Below are positions 315 through 13,140 of a stretch of 21,576 nt of DNA, one piece after another. The notes under the pieces are model-generated. The model saw only the letters and a list, made by a program, of their open reading frames with translations. It was not told the DNA's origin and searched no databases. Made by a program: the position numbers and the translations under genes. Source of the stretch: a virus; the IMG/VR virus record IMGVR_UViG_3300033143_003819, positions 1 to 21,576 of that record, one strand, 5' to 3'. How positions within the stretch are numbered: position 1 is the first letter of the stretch; each line of letters starts with the position of its first letter.

Positions 315-321
315 ATCTTGC

Positions 322-386
322 AAGACACGTCAAGACCTACCTCGACAAGACAGAGCATGATGCGATAGAACAAAACGAGACGAGAC
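322..386. repeat. Period-5 NNGAC array 1
   Basis: GAC occurs at 324, 334, 344, 349, 379 and 384, with near matches (GAT or AAC) at 359, 364, 369 and 374. All of these positions leave remainder 4 when divided by 5. The two bases between GACs vary freely. The tract fills the gap between the primase stop and the next ribosome site and contains no ORF. Confidence 0.75.
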
Positions 387-421
387 TAACCAACACAATC
401 TAACAAAGGAGATTAGAAATT

Positions 422-979
422 ATGAAAACAGCTACCACAAATTTAAAAAGCAGTTCATCTTACAGTCAATCAAAGTATTATGACACACCAAAAGAAGAAA
501 AAGAATCGAACGCTGATTATGAAAAAAGGACATGGAGGGACAGACTCCATACAACAAAAGATAACAACGTGTTTATCCCCCCAATGGCATTCAAAAATTG
601 CATTGCTGAAGCCGCAAAGTATCTCGCAATAAAAATTCCTGGTAAGGGAAAGCAGAACTATACAAAGCATTTTGAAGCAGGAATACTTGTAACTGAACCA
701 CTTATTCTTCCAGACAAAAAAGACAAAGTTGAAGGGGAATGGTTCTTTGTACCATCAGATGGAAGGCGTGGTGGAAACACAAGAGTTCACAAATGCTTTC
801 CAGTTATCCACAAATGGGAGGGGAAAGTAGATTTCATCATTTTTGATGATACAGTTACTAAAGAAATATTTGAGTATGTGCTGGAAGAAGCTGGCAAGTT
901 TATTGGTTTAGGAAGATTTCGTCCAAGAAACAATGGCTTTTACGGAAGATTTTCTGTTGAAAATATAAAATGGTCTTAG
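422..979 (+). CDS. Unknown phage protein, possible RAMP (Cas7-like) fold
   Basis: A 185-residue protein with ribosome site AAAGGAG at 405-411 ahead of ATG 422. The first 25 residues are Ser/Thr/Lys rich and probably disordered. The core reads: 'FIPPMAFKNCIAEAAKYL' helix (about 57-74), a strand with acidic loop 'LILPDKKDK', a 'VPSDGRRGGNTRVHKCFPVIHKW' segment, a strand 'VDFIIFDD', a helix 'FEYVLEEAGKFIGLG', and the terminal Gly/aromatic loop 'FRPRNNGFYGRF'. I recognise this arrangement from many phage and prophage proteins of unknown role. A helix followed by GLGxFRP and then a GRF strand resembles the glycine-rich loop of RAMP-fold proteins; that is inference only. It is flanked on both sides by NNGAC arrays, which makes it look like a cassette. 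Function is not known. Confidence 0.7.
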   Translation: MKTATTNLKSSSSYSQSKYYDTPKEEKESNADYEKRTWRDRLHTTKDNNVFIPPMAFKNCIAEAAKYLAIKIPGKGKQNYTKHFEAGILVTEPLILPDKKDKVEGEWFFVPSDGRRGGNTRVHKCFPVIHKWEGKVDFIIFDDTVTKEIFEYVLEEAGKFIGLGRFRPRNNGFYGRFSVENIKWS

Positions 980-1003
980 CTTAAAAAACGAGGTAGGATT
1001 TAA

Positions 1004-1228
1004 CTAGACGCAGCACGTCCCGATGGGACCCGACAGGACACGACTTGATTTGACTCGACCTGACCTGACAAGGAAACAACCAATTTACGAGACTTGGCAA
1101 GACGAGATTAGACGTGACAAGACAAAACCTGACTATACAAGACAAGGTTTTTAAACAGTTTGCCCGACATGACCTGACCAGATGAGACTACACTCGACAG
1201 GATGGGACTGGACTATACAAGACAAGAT
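1004..1228. repeat. Period-5 NNGAC array 2 (longest)
   Basis: About 225 bp in which GAC, or a one-base variant such as GAT, GGC, TAC or AAC, falls at positions of the form 5n+1. Exact GAC occurs at 1006, 1026, 1031, 1036, 1041, 1051, 1056, 1061, 1066, 1091, 1101, 1111, 1116, 1121, 1131, 1141, 1166, 1171, 1176, 1186, 1196, 1206, 1211 and 1221. The register survives an interruption at 1146-1165. A 16-bp block GACTATACAAGACAAG is repeated exactly at 1131 and 1211 (80 bp apart). It ends about 20 bp before the next gene's ribosome site. Confidence 0.85.
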
Positions 1229-1252
1229 AATTCAACTAAAAGGAGAAGAAAA

Positions 1253-1741
1253 ATGTCAAATTTTATTTTATCAATTGAAACAAAACAATTACTTGAAAGA
1301 CTAATGAAAGTAAAAGTTGGGGAACTTATTTCCTATCAAGAAATGACAGATATTGTTGGCAGAGATATAAGAAAAGATGGTAGTGGTATTATGTACTCTG
1401 CAAGAAGAAAAGCTCTGAATGATTGCCAGATTGTTTTTATAACAATAACAAATGAAGGAATAAAAAGAGCTTCGGATGAAGAAATTGCTAACAGTGGTGC
1501 TTCCGTCATACATAAAATCAGGAAAGCTTCTAAGAAAGGAAAAAAAGTGCTTCATGCTGTCAATGATTTTGGTGCTCTTACAAATAATAGCAAAATAAGG
1601 CACAATGCCTCTGCTTCTTTCTTAGGAGCAATTGATTTGATGACTCGACCAAAAAAGATAGTTGCTTTAGAAGAAAAAGTAAAAGAAGAATCTGAATGTA
1701 TTAACGTCACAAAAACTCTGGAATTATTCAAGGCAAATTAA
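1253..1741 (+). CDS. Unknown basic phage protein
   Basis: I place the start at ATG 1253, preceded by AAAAGGAGAAG at 1239-1249. An upstream in-frame ATG at 1202 lies inside the GAC array, and its extra 17 residues look like translated repeat. The 162-residue product is rich in Lys and predicted helical. The N-terminal part has 'ISYQEMTDIVGRD' (about 24-36), which could be a small helix-turn-helix-like unit, followed by an RRK basic patch and 'IVFITITNEGIKR' strands. The C-terminal third is charged (EEKVKEES). I recognise no catalytic motif. A DNA-binding or accessory role is possible from the basic character only. NNGAC arrays lie on both sides, like the gene before it. Confidence 0.65.
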   Translation: MSNFILSIETKQLLERLMKVKVGELISYQEMTDIVGRDIRKDGSGIMYSARRKALNDCQIVFITITNEGIKRASDEEIANSGASVIHKIRKASKKGKKVLHAVNDFGALTNNSKIRHNASASFLGAIDLMTRPKKIVALEEKVKEESECINVTKTLELFKAN

Positions 1742-1750
1742 ACAGTTTAC

Positions 1751-1835
1751 AAGACAAAGCACGGCTTGGCACGACCAGACAAGACCGAGTCCGGCTTGGC
1801 TCGACCAGACAAGACGAGACTTAACGAGACAAGGT
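1751..1835. repeat. Period-5 NNGAC array 3 with internal 30-bp duplication
   Basis: GAC at 1753, 1773, 1778, 1783, 1803, 1808, 1813, 1818 and 1828, all of the form 5n+3, with GGC, AAC or TAC at several of the missing steps. Positions 1762-1785 and 1792-1815 are a 24-bp direct repeat with a single mismatch, 30 bp (six units) apart. The array begins at the stop codon of the preceding gene and stops just before a sigma70-like promoter. Confidence 0.8.
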
Positions 1836-3032: not shown

Positions 3033-4331
3033 ATGGTCGACAACGAAACAATAATACTTCCTTTCGATATTTGGGATGCTCTCACATATATTGGACTGCC
3101 AAAAAGCGAAATGTCCTGCTTAATGCTCATCATAAAAAAGACAGTTGGATGGGATAAAAAGCGGGATGAAATTGCCATTTCTCAGTTCATAAAAGCAACA
3201 AGACTTCCCAAATCCTCAATATTTAGGGCATTGAACTCACTCAAGAAAAAGAGGATTATTTTCAGTCTCAAAAATGAGACTCGAATCAATATAACTTATG
3301 GATTTAACAGCCGGATACAGGACTGGAAATCAGTCTCAAAAATGAGACTCGACATCAAAAATGAGACTGACCATCAATCAACTAATGAAAATAACAAGAA
3401 AAACAAGATAAAGCTCGTTTTGAAGAAACCCCGGGATGGAGTCTCAAAAATGAGACTACACAGTAATACTAGTATAACATCCAGTAATAAAGATACTGGC
3501 GTATCTTTATTGAGTACTCCTATCGGAGCACAAAAGAGAATGAGTGACTCACTCAGGAATAACAAAACTGATTTGATTCCAAAAAAGAAAAGTCTCACAT
3601 TGACTAAAAAGAATAAACGAATATTTGATTATTACTACCAAGAATATTATAAGAAACAGCCATCATTGAATACTCAAGCTGCAAAGAAAGCCAAACATTG
3701 CTTAAACAAACTTGCAAGGGGAATTTTGTTTAACAGAGATACTTCCCTAAAAAAATATCACAATAGAAAATTCTCAGAAAAGGAAATCAGATTTGCTATT
3801 GACAGACATATTACAAAAGCGGTAGATGATTCATATAAACCAGCAAACAAAGGATTCATGTTTGTTTATCTTGCCGATTTCTTCTATAATAAATTTTCAA
3901 GGATTAAAAGCTTATTCCTTGACTCACTCGAAAACGAACCAGTCCCAGTAGTTCCTGTTCTTGTTGATCGCAATCCCGAATTGTCCAAAGCTCTATTTGA
4001 TGTATACAACGAAGAAGCTCGAAATGGTTTATCCATGACACCATTTGACAAGCTGACACATAAAGATAAGAATTGTTTTACTGCCGGAGCATTCAAACTG
4101 AATAAGTTTCTCAAGATGAACGATAATAGGATTATCAAGCCAATGTTGAACACACACCAAAAGAAAGCAATGTTGTTATGGAAAACCATAATGATGTGTG
4201 CAAATAACGATTTAAAGAAAGTTCATGCATTCTGGTTTAAAGCTGATTTTGTATTCGAGAGATTGCCAAATTATATGACTGATAGAGGATTTTTGACATC
4301 GAACGCAAAGCGGAGTGCGTTTGTAGTGTGA
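3033..4331 (+). CDS. Lambda O-like replication initiation protein
   Basis: The N-terminal 90 residues match the phage replication protein O domain. 'IILPFDIWDALTYIGLPKSEMSCLMLIIKKTVGWDKK' is the usual opening, followed by the winged-helix segment 'ISQFIKATRLPKSSIFRALNSLKKKRII' that binds iterons. Residues about 95-200 are Lys/Ser/Asn-rich linker; its DNA carries four copies of an 18-bp palindrome. The C-terminal 230 residues are mixed helical with 'AMLLWKTIMM' and 'FWFKADFVFERLPNYM'; in lambda O the C-terminal part contacts the helicase loader, and by analogy this part may contact the DnaB-like helicase encoded next. At 432 residues it is longer than lambda O (about 300). The start at 3033 lacks a good ribosome site and follows the previous stop by one base, so coupling is likely. 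The linker contains KIKLVLKKP and KKKSLTLTKK, the basic motif seen in other replisome proteins here. Confidence 0.8.
   Translation: MVDNETIILPFDIWDALTYIGLPKSEMSCLMLIIKKTVGWDKKRDEIAISQFIKATRLPKSSIFRALNSLKKKRIIFSLKNETRINITYGFNSRIQDWKSVSKMRLDIKNETDHQSTNENNKKNKIKLVLKKPRDGVSKMRLHSNTSITSSNKDTGVSLLSTPIGAQKRMSDSLRNNKTDLIPKKKSLTLTKKNKRIFDYYYQEYYKKQPSLNTQAAKKAKHCLNKLARGILFNRDTSLKKYHNRKFSEKEIRFAIDRHITKAVDDSYKPANKGFMFVYLADFFYNKFSRIKSLFLDSLENEPVPVVPVLVDRNPELSKALFDVYNEEARNGLSMTPFDKLTHKDKNCFTAGAFKLNKFLKMNDNRIIKPMLNTHQKKAMLLWKTIMMCANNDLKKVHAFWFKADFVFERLPNYMTDRGFLTSNAKRSAFVV
3264..3281. repeat. Iteron 1, 18-bp palindrome
   Basis: AGTCTCAAAAATGAGACT, perfect copy; 7-bp arms AGTCTCA/TGAGACT around AAAA. Read in the gene frame as SLKNET. 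Confidence 0.85.
3332..3349. repeat. Iteron 2, 18-bp palindrome
   Basis: Identical 18-mer, 68 bp after iteron 1, but in a different reading frame of the same gene (encodes VSKMRL with flanks). Identity across two frames shows the DNA is conserved, not the peptide. Confidence 0.85.
3351..3368. repeat. Iteron 3, partial copy
   Basis: The last 14 of 18 bases match (TCAAAAATGAGACT); the left arm is degenerate (GACA instead of AGTC). It begins two bases after iteron 2 ends, so the two centres are 19 bp apart, roughly two helical turns, on the same face. Confidence 0.7.
3440..3457. repeat. Iteron 4, 18-bp palindrome
   Basis: Identical 18-mer, in the same frame as iteron 2 (VSKMRL). A further half-site AGTCTCA lies at 3591-3597. 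Confidence 0.85.
3486..3511. repeat. AT-rich inverted repeat next to the iterons
   Basis: AATAAAGATA (3486-3495) and TATCTTTATT (3502-3511), a perfect 10-bp inverted repeat around CTGGCG. It follows an AT-rich stretch (3462-3490) on the downstream side of the iteron cluster, where lambda has its melting region. Confidence 0.6.
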
Positions 4332-7692: not shown

Positions 7693-7865
7693 TGGAACGG
7701 CGCAAAACATCATCAGATAGAAGAGAAATATTCGGGCACTATATTGCTCACGACCGACGGTCAGGAATAGTTGATCGTCGGTCGCTTTCTGAAAAGCGTC
7801 TGGAAAGGGCAATCTGTAATTTAATAAAATTCTCAAGGGTATATTTTATAGATGAAAAAAACTAA
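7692..7865 (+). CDS. 57-residue basic protein with duplicated DRRS motif
   Basis: The ATG lies in the TAATG overlap with the H1-like gene's stop, so it can be translated by reinitiation. The frame stays open 57 codons and runs 14 nt into the methyltransferase gene. The protein begins MERRKTSSDRRE, then 'HDRRSGIVDRRSLSEKR', then a helical 'LERAICNLIKFSRVYFI'. Short proteins with repeated (D/E)RRSG are seen in many bacteria and phages, function unclear. The two DRRS segments are encoded by the two arms of a 13-bp hairpin at 7751-7784. Coding is supported by tight packing rather than by homology. Confidence 0.5.
   Translation: MERRKTSSDRREIFGHYIAHDRRSGIVDRRSLSEKRLERAICNLIKFSRVYFIDEKN
7751..7784 (+). 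promoter_or_regulatory. 13-bp hairpin within a small gene
   Basis: CGACCGACGGTCA (7751-7763) pairs with TGATCGTCGGTCG (7772-7784), one G-U pair, 8-nt loop GGAATAGT, followed by CTTTCTG. Loop size and the single wobble resemble the 1986-2023 hairpin. It may be a partial terminator after the strongly expressed H1-like gene, or simply a by-product of the DRRS duplication. Confidence 0.5.
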
Positions 7866-8835
7866 GCTTGTCTTAAAAAAGAAACCAAAGCTTGTCTTGA
7901 AGAAAAAAACAAAAGGATTCAGTGCTGAAGCCTTAGCCAAATCAAGACAAATCAAATCCGAGTTCTTAATTGAGCTTGGCACAAAGAAAGTTCCAACATC
8001 CATCCTTATACATAATCGCACCGAAGTAATATCCAAAACAACGGATACTTCAAGGAAGAAAAGAGGTGGTGGTTATGCTTTTCACTACAAAAAGAATGCA
8101 AGAACAATGCACAGCAATAAAAACTACACTCCGGGTCTTGAGAAGTCAGGACTCAAACTACAAGGAAGAACAAACACTCTCTCGGCATTTCCTCAGAATA
8201 TAGGGAGAATCATCACAAAAATATACTGTCCTGAAGGCGGAACAGTTTATGACCCATTCGCAGGACACAACAGCCGGATGGAGTTGTGTTATAAAGCAGG
8301 AATGAATTATATTGGTGTTGATTTGTGTCACGAATTTATGTTGAACAACATGGAAATGGCAGAAATCCTAAACAAAAGGAACAAAGAATCATTATTGCCA
8401 AGAAAGAACTTTATCAAATTATATGAAGGCAGTTCGGCACATGTTCCTGCTTTCTCAAGTGAAAGTGCCGACTTCACGATCACTTCTCCACCTTATTGGG
8501 ACATTGAATACTATGGTCCCGAAGAGGAGCAGTTAGGAAAATCTCAAACATATGATGATTTCATTGATAATCTAATGCCACACGTTAAAGAAAACTATAG
8601 AATCCTCAAGCAAGGCGCTTACTGTTGCTGGTTTATTAATGACTTCAGGAAAGATAAAGTATTCTACCCATACCACGTGGATTTGTACAGATTATTCATT
8701 GAAGCAGGATTCACACCATTTAATATATACATAGTTGACTTAGGAAATCCGGTGAATGCCGCATTCGTACAGGATATAATTAACAATAAAATATTACCAA
8801 AGAAACATGAATATATATTGGTGTTTAAAAAATGA
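7852..8835 (+). CDS. DNA methyltransferase (N6-adenine or N4-cytosine)
   Basis: 327 residues. Motif I is 'YDPFAGHNSR' (D134-P-F-A-G138), followed by 'YIGVDL' (motif II) and the catalytic motif IV 'TSPPYW' (211-216), typical of amino-methyltransferases acting on exocyclic amines (m4C or m6A). Later strands 'GAYCCWFIND' and the closing 'KKHEYILVFKK' complete the Rossmann fold. The order I then IV fits enzymes in which the SAM site precedes the catalytic motif. The N-terminus carries two copies of a lysine motif, KLVLKKKP and KLVLKKKT, which are outside the methyltransferase fold and similar to tails in other replisome proteins here. No restriction partner is visible in the window, so it is probably an orphan used for protection or regulation. 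The ATG lies within the preceding small gene. Confidence 0.85.
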   Translation: MKKTKLVLKKKPKLVLKKKTKGFSAEALAKSRQIKSEFLIELGTKKVPTSILIHNRTEVISKTTDTSRKKRGGGYAFHYKKNARTMHSNKNYTPGLEKSGLKLQGRTNTLSAFPQNIGRIITKIYCPEGGTVYDPFAGHNSRMELCYKAGMNYIGVDLCHEFMLNNMEMAEILNKRNKESLLPRKNFIKLYEGSSAHVPAFSSESADFTITSPPYWDIEYYGPEEEQLGKSQTYDDFIDNLMPHVKENYRILKQGAYCCWFINDFRKDKVFYPYHVDLYRLFIEAGFTPFNIYIVDLGNPVNAAFVQDIINNKILPKKHEYILVFKK

Positions 8836-10406: not shown

Positions 10407-10606
10407 TGGAAGAATACACCGTTGTATATATATCAGAATTAACAAAGAAAGTTAACAAAAATAGAGAAGATGTATATAAAGCTATGAAATGGGGAAAAGC
10501 ACCAAAACTTAGTGATGGAGATGTTAGAATGGTTGTTGAAACAATGGATGGGTACCACTCTATGGATGGATACCACTCTATGAAGGAAATAAATGACAAA
10601 AAATGA
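10406..10606 (+). CDS. Small protein with a duplicated DGYHSM motif
   Basis: 66 residues; start in the TAATG overlap of the clamp stop. Residues about 8-50 look like a small helix-turn-helix ('VYISELTKKVNKNREDVYKAMKWGKAPKLSDGDVRMVVETM'), which could be a DNA-binding or toxin/antitoxin-like module, uncertain. It then has a direct duplication MDGYHS-MDGYHS coming from an 18-bp tandem repeat. It overlaps the polymerase gene by 14 nt. No family assignment. Confidence 0.55.
   Translation: MEEYTVVYISELTKKVNKNREDVYKAMKWGKAPKLSDGDVRMVVETMDGYHSMDGYHSMKEINDKK
10544..10579 (+). repeat. 18-bp tandem duplication
   Basis: ATGGATGGGTACCACTCT (10544-10561) and ATGGATGGATACCACTCT (10562-10579), one mismatch, in frame. 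Recent slippage-type duplication in the small gene at 10406. Confidence 0.9.
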
Positions 10607-11984
10607 CCAATATGATTTCTTTGAAGAGGATGGGATAGACGAAGCAGACTTTGAAATCACTGAGTCGGCGGATGCTGAGTGTTATAAGTGTGGTCTCTAT
10701 CGTAAGGTAAACTCTCTTATCGTAGCAGAGGCAGCAGGAAGTAATGAAGACAAAGCAGGAAAACAACTTGTAGGCAAAGCAGGACAAAAGAAAAGAGCAG
10801 AGCTTAAAAAGAATGGGCTGGATTTAGATATAGATTTTTGGAAAACGAACGCTTTGGCTTGTCGTCCGTTTGAAAAGACTGAACATGGAACAAAGAACAG
10901 ACCACCAACCAAAGCAGAGTTATCATACTGCCGTCCTCTTGTAACTAAAGCAATTAAAAAATATAATCCTAAGTTTATTTGGTTGCTTGGTGGAAAAGCG
11001 ATTCAATCCTTTTTCATGGGGAAGTTCAAGATTGTGACAGCAAACAGATGGAGAGGGCTTTGCATCCCTGACAGAGAAACGGGCGCATACATTTTACCAA
11101 TGTATCATCCGTCTTATATTATTCGGAGCAGCAAGGATAAAAATCTTGTGTCCTGTTGGATGCGTGATGTAAAGAACGCTGCGGAGGCATTGACATTAGA
11201 GCCGTTTACATTTCAGGATGAGAATAAACAAGTTACCTGCTTGTACGATTTTGATTCTGTTTGTGATGTACTGGATGACATTCTTGAAAAAGAACCAGAA
11301 CATTTAGCATTCGACTATGAAGCAACTGGGCTCAAACCATACGCTCCCGGACACAAAATATCCACAATCTCTGTTTGCTGTGGGGACGAAGCCTTCTCTT
11401 TTCCTTTCGACTACAAAGACCATTGGTCTCCTCTGATGCTCAAACAGATACGAAAGAGATGGCGAAAGATACTACAAAATCCTGACATCGGCAAGATAGC
11501 TCATAACATCAAGTTTGAGGATGTATGGTCATCAACATTATTGAACGTTAAAATCAAAGGATGGTCTTGGGATACGATGCTTGCTGCACACATTCTTGAT
11601 AATCGTTCGGCGTATACTTCCCTGAACTTCCAAACTTACATTAATTTTGGTGTCTTTCCTTATGATGCAAAAGTAAAAAGATTTCTAAAGTCCCAAAACT
11701 CAAATGCTTTTAATAAAATTGAACAAGCACCACTTGAAGACATACTTCATTACAATGGTTTAGATTCCTTGTTTTGTTACAAGTTGTTTAAAGAAAAACA
11801 GTTACCACAATTTGAAGAAGACTATATGATTGGTCCCACAGATAAAAAGAAGTTGATTGATGCATATTATTTACTACATGATGGGACGTTAGCTCTATCT
11901 AAAGTTGAGCAAAATGGCATATGTGTCAATGAAGAGTATTACGTATCTGAACGAAGGAAAAGAAGCCAAACTCTTCCGAGATAA
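10593..11984 (+). CDS. Uracil-DNA glycosylase (family 4)-3'-5' exonuclease part of a PolA-type polymerase (frame broken)
   Basis: 463 residues before TAA 11982-11984. Residues about 28-205 are a family-4 UDG: Cys 30 and 33 (CYKC), 'VAEAAGSNEDKAGKQLVGKAG' (43-63), Cys 90 in 'NALACRP', Cys 113, and 'HPSYIIR' (172-178). All four iron-sulphur cysteines and the HPS motif are present. Residues about 230-405 are a DnaQ-like proofreading exonuclease with D241-Y-E243, 'AHNIKFED' and 'YNGLD' (387-391). It then enters the polymerase domain at 'GICVNEEYYVSE' but ends 11 codons later, while the rest continues in the +1 frame. A fused UDG-exo-pol arrangement is known from SPO1-type phage polymerases. UDG activity could remove uracil from templates. 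The start overlaps the previous gene; there is no strong ribosome site. Confidence 0.85.
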   Translation: MTKNDQYDFFEEDGIDEADFEITESADAECYKCGLYRKVNSLIVAEAAGSNEDKAGKQLVGKAGQKKRAELKKNGLDLDIDFWKTNALACRPFEKTEHGTKNRPPTKAELSYCRPLVTKAIKKYNPKFIWLLGGKAIQSFFMGKFKIVTANRWRGLCIPDRETGAYILPMYHPSYIIRSSKDKNLVSCWMRDVKNAAEALTLEPFTFQDENKQVTCLYDFDSVCDVLDDILEKEPEHLAFDYEATGLKPYAPGHKISTISVCCGDEAFSFPFDYKDHWSPLMLKQIRKRWRKILQNPDIGKIAHNIKFEDVWSSTLLNVKIKGWSWDTMLAAHILDNRSAYTSLNFQTYINFGVFPYDAKVKRFLKSQNSNAFNKIEQAPLEDILHYNGLDSLFCYKLFKEKQLPQFEEDYMIGPTDKKKLIDAYYLLHDGTLALSKVEQNGICVNEEYYVSERRKRSQTLPR

Positions 11985-13140
11985 GACTGGGAGAACGTTG
12001 AGCAACACTTCGGGAAAGGATTTAGGACAATTGTTCTACGATATCCTAAAACTACCAAAGATATTAACAAGCAAAGGAAGTTACTCGACAGATAAAGATG
12101 CAATCGCCAAGATAAATTCACCATTCGCAGAGAAATTATTGCTCTTCAGAAAATTAGAAAAAGTTAGAGGTACATATGTAGCTCAGTTTAAGCGAGAGAC
12201 ATACGATGGCAAAATGCACCCCATGTCAAACTTAAATATTCCTGTGACATATAGACCAAGCACAGACAGACCAAACTTTGCAAACATTCCGAAGAGAGAT
12301 GAAGAAGCAAAAAAATATACTCGTTCAGGCATTATCCCATCAAAAGGATGGAAGATACTTGAGAGTGACTTTAGTGGCATAGAAGTTGCCACAAGTACTT
12401 GTTACAATAGGGACAGGAATCTAATAAAATATGTAACTGATATAAAATCAGACATGCACAGGGATTCTGCTGCTGACTTGTGGAAGCTGAAACAAAAGGA
12501 AGTCACAAAAAAGATTCGGTTCTACGCTAAAAATCAATGGGTCTTTCCTGAGTTCTACGGAGATTGGTATGGCTCATGTGCAAGGAACTTATGGGACAAC
12601 TGCATCAAACTAAAATTAGATTCGGATATAACATTAGGGCAGCACTTGAGAATGAAGGGTATCAATAATTACAATGCATTTGTAGAGCATTGCAAGGAAG
12701 TAGAAAGAGTATTTTGGGACGAGAGATTCCCCAACTATAAAAAATGGAAAGAAAAAATAAACAAACTGTATCGAAAGCAAGGATTCATAGAGACTTATCT
12801 TGGCTTTGTCTTTAGAGGATACTTGGCAAAGAATGATTGTACTAACTATCAAGCACAAGGAACTGCCTTTCATATATTACTATGGACATTAATAGAACTG
12901 CTAAAAGAAATGGAAAAGCGAAAACTCAAGACAAAAATAATTGGTCAAATATATGACTCGATTGTGAACGACTTGTATCCACCTGAAGAGGAAGAGATAA
13001 TTTATCTTATCAATGATATTGGCACTGTTCGGACACGAAAAGAATTTGATTGGATTATTGTGCCACTCAATATTGACCATGAAATAACAGAAATAGATGG
13101 AACATGGTATGACAAAACAGATTGGAAAAAAGTCGCCTAA
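11929..13140 (+). CDS. DNA polymerase A-family polymerase domain (continuation after frameshift)
   Basis: The polymerase domain continues in the +1 frame, so either the gene is frameshifted or the product is made separately from ATG 11929 or 11914; no ribosome site supports that. 'GKDLGQLFYDIL' (thumb start), 'NIPVTYRPSTDRPNFANIPKRD', motif A 'ESDFSGIEVATS' (DFS at 12367), motif B region 'RFYAKNQWVFPEFYGDWYG', and motif C 'IGQIYDSIVND' (12945-12977) are all present. Motif C has YDS where bacterial Pol I has HDE; the metal-binding Asp is kept. The C-terminus reaches a normal end. Thus both halves look intact except at the junction. Together with the upstream ORF this is one phage replicative polymerase of about 850 residues. 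Catalysis: template-directed DNA synthesis with the clamp. Confidence 0.85.
   Translation: MKSITYLNEGKEAKLFRDKTGRTLSNTSGKDLGQLFYDILKLPKILTSKGSYSTDKDAIAKINSPFAEKLLLFRKLEKVRGTYVAQFKRETYDGKMHPMSNLNIPVTYRPSTDRPNFANIPKRDEEAKKYTRSGIIPSKGWKILESDFSGIEVATSTCYNRDRNLIKYVTDIKSDMHRDSAADLWKLKQKEVTKKIRFYAKNQWVFPEFYGDWYGSCARNLWDNCIKLKLDSDITLGQHLRMKGINNYNAFVEHCKEVERVFWDERFPNYKKWKEKINKLYRKQGFIETYLGFVFRGYLAKNDCTNYQAQGTAFHILLWTLIELLKEMEKRKLKTKIIGQIYDSIVNDLYPPEEEEIIYLINDIGTVRTRKEFDWIIVPLNIDHEITEIDGTWYDKTDWKKVA

Follow-up and report, generated by a model that had tools for sequence, protein, structure and literature searches.

What kind of element keeps three bases out of every five? In three intergenic gaps of a 21,576-nt stretch of phage DNA (the whole of which is called the window here), the triplet GAC recurs every 5 bp, with two variable bases (NN) in between. 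The original prediction, which described this pattern, knew of no named element of such a kind and treated NN as idle bases. However, the vrRNAs of the VIPR (Viral Interference Programmable Repeat) system, first posted in April 2026, are such an element (PMC13142463), and by that precedent NN would be an information-bearing guide. We consider it very probable that the window arrays are vrRNA (guide-RNA) genes of a phage-carried VIPR in a GAC dialect, with NN read as a gapped guide for a DNA target.

VIPR is a phage-borne, RNA-guided relative of CRISPR, composed of a small RAMP protein (Vipr), an accessory component (Vap) and vrRNAs (PMC13142463; bioRxiv, April and June 2026). A vrRNA is a run of 9-16 pentamers, each made up of GGY and a hypervariable NN; successive NN pair with double-stranded DNA, skipping one target base from one NN to the next, and the complex represses transcription, its natural targets being satellites and prophages (PMC13142463). 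According to its authors, all seven types carry GGY/NN "or a related consensus", and six unlike vap genes were named (PMC13142463). The literature searched yielded no further description of VIPR beyond this source.

GAC triplets form a period-5 lattice in three gaps

Within the arrays we counted 39 GAC pairs spaced 5 or 10 bp apart, compared with a mean of 2.2 and a maximum of 10 when the same segments were resampled 5000 times under a first-order Markov model. The pairs divide into 18 at lag 5 and 21 that are 10 bp apart, while lags 3, 4, 6-9 and 11-14 gave none; across the remainder of the window, no lag-5 excess of GAC was observed. The anticipated lag-5 signal was thereby confirmed against resampled sequence. 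The proposal of a single register per gap (remainders 4, 1 and 3 mod 5) held for gap 1 (315-421; remainder 4 in 6/6 GACs) and gap 3 (1742-1850; remainder 3 in 9/9), but not for gap 2 (980-1252). There, nine of the 24 GACs (1007-1069) have remainder 2 and 15 (1091-1223) have remainder 1, with a one-base register step between 1067 and 1091. The interruption at 1144-1165 keeps the register, as had been predicted, the distance from 1141 to 1166 being 25.

At some positions GAC is replaced in register by GAT, GGC, GGT, AAC or a few other triplets, and the per-position GAC consensus of the window lattice is 0.82/0.82/0.86. All 16 NN dinucleotides are represented while the triplets stay fixed, and a conserved repeat longer than the triplet was not found in the window arrays. 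Parsed as triplet plus NN, the three gaps contain about five units (1; 2a, 2b and 2c; 3), and units 2a, 2b, 2c and 3 have a common 3′ end, ACAAG(G/A). The features of the locus, all on the plus strand, are as follows.

319-403, plus strand: vrRNA-like unit 1, 5′ of vipr; about 15 triplet-plus-NN units, GAC replaced in places by GAT, AAC or AGC; lattice window at -88 relative to vipr.
422-979, plus strand: vipr, between arrays 1 and 2; 185-aa predicted RAMP (Cas7-like) protein, homologue of SUSP1 Vipr; G-loop GKFIGLGRFRPRNNGFYGRF.
1002-1074, plus strand: vrRNA-like unit 2a, register 2 mod 5; NN series GC AC CC GG CC AG AC TT TT TC CT CT; end GACAAGG.
1086-1149, plus strand: vrRNA-like unit 2b, register 1 mod 5; NN series GA TT AA GA TA GT AA AA CT TA; end TACAAGACAAGG.
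1161-1228, plus strand: vrRNA-like unit 2c, register 1 mod 5; NN series CC AT CT CA GA TA TC AG GG TG TA; end TACAAGACAAGA.
1253-1741, plus strand: vap-like accessory gene, 162 aa; predicted winged-helix N-terminal domain and helical C-terminal part.
1748-1835, plus strand: vrRNA-like unit 3, 3′ of vap; internal 30-bp imperfect duplication; end GAGACAAGG.

A search of the window against Rfam gave no match. Single folds of the lattice RNA revealed no stable structure (z between -1.8 and 0.7), which fits the expectation for a guide.

The gene between arrays 1 and 2 encodes a Vipr homologue

The product of 422-979 matched PDB chain 36pp_D ("SUSP1 Vipr protein") by phmmer with an E value of 1e-5, and a profile of 42 relatives matched the same chain with an E value of 3.5e-9. 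In hhalign against the SUSP1 gene product the probability was 97 and the profile E value 4e-11, the two proteins being only remotely related. An AlphaFold2 model built from the protein's own relatives (pLDDT 95) matched type VII Cas7 in Foldseek (E value of 1.4e-8) and Csm3 in VIA-align (Z of 12.0 over 155 residues, rmsd of 3.2), and because of these matches the window Vipr is predicted to have the RAMP fold of Cas7/Csm3. The G-loop glycines are invariant across the 42 relatives. The locus thus contains what identifies a Vipr, namely, a small, by prediction RAMP-type protein with a G-loop that is homologous to known Viprs. The plasmid collection contained no relative of it.

The window locus shares with the type II VIPR of Escherichia phage SUSP1 (PDB 36pp) a phage-encoded small RAMP protein, a single accessory gene and intergenic lattices of a triplet plus two hypervariable bases, both upstream and downstream. 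Besides the distance between the two Viprs, it differs in its triplet (GAC instead of GGY) and in the 3′ tail, which is structured in SUSP1, while single folds revealed no such tail in the window units. The predicted fold is also that of the Cas7/Csm3 backbone of class 1 CRISPR-Cas (types III-A and VII), which by analogy likewise forms a filament on a guide RNA whose pairing is periodically interrupted. However, the window Vipr has no adjoining CRISPR repeat/spacer array, the period is 5 rather than 6, and the guide, contiguous in those systems, would be interleaved with the scaffold. CRISPR-Cas itself was rejected, as the arrays lack direct repeats with unique contiguous spacers, and none of the genes searched beside the arrays belonged to a cas family. 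Another early idea, primase recognition sites (T7-like, with GTC on the minus strand), was likewise dropped once Vipr had been identified.

A conserved accessory gene lies beside vipr

Homologues of the 162-aa gene at 1253-1741 lie directly 3′ of vipr in 43 of the 57 viral vipr loci. The AF2 model of its product (pLDDT 95) gave only middling structural matches, to a winged-helix-like domain at the N terminus, and none that was strong; the identities suggested by individual matches (MAGE, PurR, response regulator) were set aside for this reason, and the model was taken as a winged helix only. Its profile match to SUSP1 vap1 was marginal (hhalign probability of 33). We therefore regard the product as a predicted winged-helix, vap-like accessory protein, so that a conserved gene does occupy the place of a vap beside vipr, with marginal homology to SUSP1 vap1.

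Lattices accompany vipr, and NN turn over while triplets are kept

We collected relatives of the window Vipr from 57 viral contigs and 12 genome contigs and searched their surroundings with a motif-free detector of period-5 triplet/NN lattices. Such a lattice was found beside vipr in 69 of 70 loci. Among 58 blocks of the same length located over 5 kb away, one contained a lattice, and none was detected in 70 shuffled flanks. At the SUSP1 locus (KT454805, 27500-29510), used as a positive control, the detector picked out four GGY lattices and no others, one 5′ and three 3′ of vipr, which are the four vrRNAs known from sRNA-seq (PMC13142463). A conserved triplet with hypervariable NN in the intergenic regions beside vipr, as in published VIPR, is thus a property of the window locus and its relatives. 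The sole related locus with no detectable lattice is that of a Euryarchaeota MAG (L184), in which vipr lies at the very end of the contig. An initial scan for the GACNN pattern was excluded as evidence, as many of the contigs were plain microsatellites or single chance runs.

Two phages, L138 and L060, allowed the lattice to be followed over a short distance. Their vipr genes are 99.1% identical and 95-100% of the lattice triplets are kept, whereas NN identity, computed without the last three repeats, falls to 26% on the upstream side and 39% on the downstream side, compared with a chance expectation of 25%. The expectation that GAC is kept while NN changes was thus borne out, and because NN are near chance identity between phages whose vipr genes are 99% identical, NN are probably the guide. 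In roughly half of 177 arrays, spread over most dialects, the last NN is AA, and this AA at the 3′ end is likely a shared handle. The arrays upstream of vipr in L138 (-193 to -26) and L154 (-184 to -22) run uninterrupted for 34 and 32 repeats, respectively, twice the reported vrRNA length of 9-16; they could be fused guides or a longer RNA.

This turnover also bears on what else the arrays might be. TRAP (trp RNA-binding attenuation protein) sites consist of triplets with two free bases in between, one triplet being bound per subunit. By this example, the transcribed lattice could be a leader or decoy for a ring- or filament-forming protein that controls the adjoining genes in cis, like the (G/U)AGNN repeats of TRAP, with NN having no target. 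The triplet repeats are alike, and arrays 1 and 2 lie 5′ of the vipr and vap-like start codons, where AAGGAG-like sequences follow closely after the lattice. Nevertheless, we judge this improbable: arrays are also found 3′ of the last gene of the locus, TRAP has another protein fold and spacers that carry no information, while the near-total NN turnover between near-identical vipr loci looks like diversification of content, and the homologous system is target directed (PMC13142463).

Slightly less probable still is that the arrays act as double-stranded DNA, with a phage or host protein binding once per half turn of the helix, for instance at a partition, packaging or origin site. A period of 5 is indeed about half a turn and the window arrays adjoin replication genes, but arrays are tied to vipr specifically across very different phages and MAGs, the register slips between units, a plain DNA lattice would not be expected to show fast NN turnover at fixed triplets, and the like lattice of SUSP1 is transcribed and copurifies with Vipr (PMC13142463). 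The original suggestion of a protein-binding lattice or single-strand site was thus near the mark, except that it placed the lattice on DNA at half-turn spacing, while it is most likely RNA. Degenerate pentanucleotide microsatellites, expanded by slippage and then mutated, can practically be dismissed: viral contigs do contain simple (GACNN)n tracts in which NN never varies, and array 3 contains its 30-bp duplication, but mutation would strike all five positions alike, whereas all 16 NN occur at fixed triplets, triplet identity is 95-100% against 25-40% or so for NN, the opposite of equal decay, and the lattices are tightly linked to vipr. The earlier view that the arrays are neither coding sequence, nor CRISPR, nor microsatellite was upheld on all three counts.

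Proposed mechanism and target searches

By analogy with published VIPR, we propose how a system of vrRNA genes in the window would be transcribed, bind RNA, recognize a target and serve the phage. The three lattices would be vrRNA genes encoding about five guides, and each transcript would be bound by several copies of Vipr, presumably one per pentamer. Vipr may grip the conserved GAC through its Cas7-like groove and G-loop, leaving the two variable bases free to pair. Taken in series, the NN would recognize double-stranded DNA and skip one target base from each NN to the next, a one-nucleotide rule that for GAC guides is taken from SUSP1 only. The winged-helix product of 1253-1741 would be the Vap and would likely aid DNA binding. 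The target probably lies in competing phages, satellites or prophages, whose transcription would be blocked.

We searched for such targets with exact seeds of 8-10 NN and a skip of 1 in IMG/VR; for window guides 1, 2a, 2c and 3 and one L060 guide, seed extensions were at chance level only. Similarly, when 252 arrays were decoded at skips of 0-2 and compared with 1.8 Mb of fetched loci, matches were no more frequent than for shuffled or reversed guides. The guides of L181 found nothing in 76 related genomes of the host family, and those of L179 found one match with three mismatches in 200, the flanks of which did not extend. These null results are weak evidence either way.

Genomic surroundings

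The VIPR locus sits in a phage replication region that encodes a DnaB-like helicase, clamp, clamp loader, family A polymerase and UvsX-like recombinase. Two very stable hairpins lie 3′ of the last lattice, at 1986-2023 (16 pairs, z of -5.2) and 2269-2304 (15 pairs, z of -9.2), and the latter, followed by a T run, looks like a terminator. A palindromic repeat, GTCTCAAAAATGAGAC, occurs at 2329-2344, 3265-3280, 3333-3348, 3352-3367 and 3441-3456 (four exact copies and one with three mismatches), mostly inside a phage O-like replication initiator gene (3033-4331). Allowing up to three mismatches, the whole window contains seven matches, compared with 0.36 expected, and the repeats are probable origin iterons, lambda-like in placement. 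DNA polymerase A is encoded in two overlapping ORFs in different frames (10593-13140), one with uracil-DNA glycosylase and 3′-5′ exonuclease domains (10593-11984) and the other with the polymerase domain (11905-13140), reflecting a sequencing error, a programmed frameshift or a split gene. The region also contains an N6/N4 DNA methyltransferase gene (7852-8835; Pfam N6_N4_Mtase), possibly for self-modification.

Triplet dialects among related loci

The window triplet does not match strict GGY. However, as "a related consensus" is admitted in the original description (PMC13142463), GAC marks a variant and does not exclude the locus from VIPR. The relatives reveal further dialects: counted with near-duplicate loci included, the lattice beside vipr is built on GGC in 29 loci, GAC in 15, CGC in 13, CAC in 7, CTC in 4 and GTT in 1. 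GTT was found in a Porticoccaceae MAG (L180), whose 3′ end is still CAAGACAAG despite its lattice, and CTC is found in cyanobacteria (L162, L183 and L188).

On a tree of 61 distinct Viprs, many forks of which are poorly supported, the dialect labels need at least 21 changes, compared with 29.6 for shuffled labels, so triplets appear to be inherited yet to switch often. Columns separating GGC from GAC Viprs lie mainly in the G-loop (163, 165 and 174) together with 108, and those separating G-first from C-first triplets are 126, 110 and 41; as the column z-scores ignore relatedness, these residues are leads, not proof. It is quite possible, although we hold this tentatively, that the dialects (GGC, GAC, CGC, CAC, CTC and GTT) are mutually exclusive among Viprs 37-70% identical to that of the window, and that the switches, of which the tree needs at least 21, went along with changes at G-loop residues (163, 165, 171 and 174), around 106-110 and at 126. 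Each Vipr would then read its own dialect only, and coexisting systems would be orthogonal.

VIPR is a very recent discovery, described in a single preprint and using a new guide code, and the window provides an independent example of it, recognized from raw DNA. VIPR-like loci are common in uncultivated phages, and their scaffold triplet is not fixed to GGY, several dialects being found among fairly close relatives. The dialects make the recognition of a guide scaffold by a RAMP protein directly testable through swaps of a few residues and the triplet, and they could supply orthogonal RNA-guided DNA binders of roughly 20 kDa.
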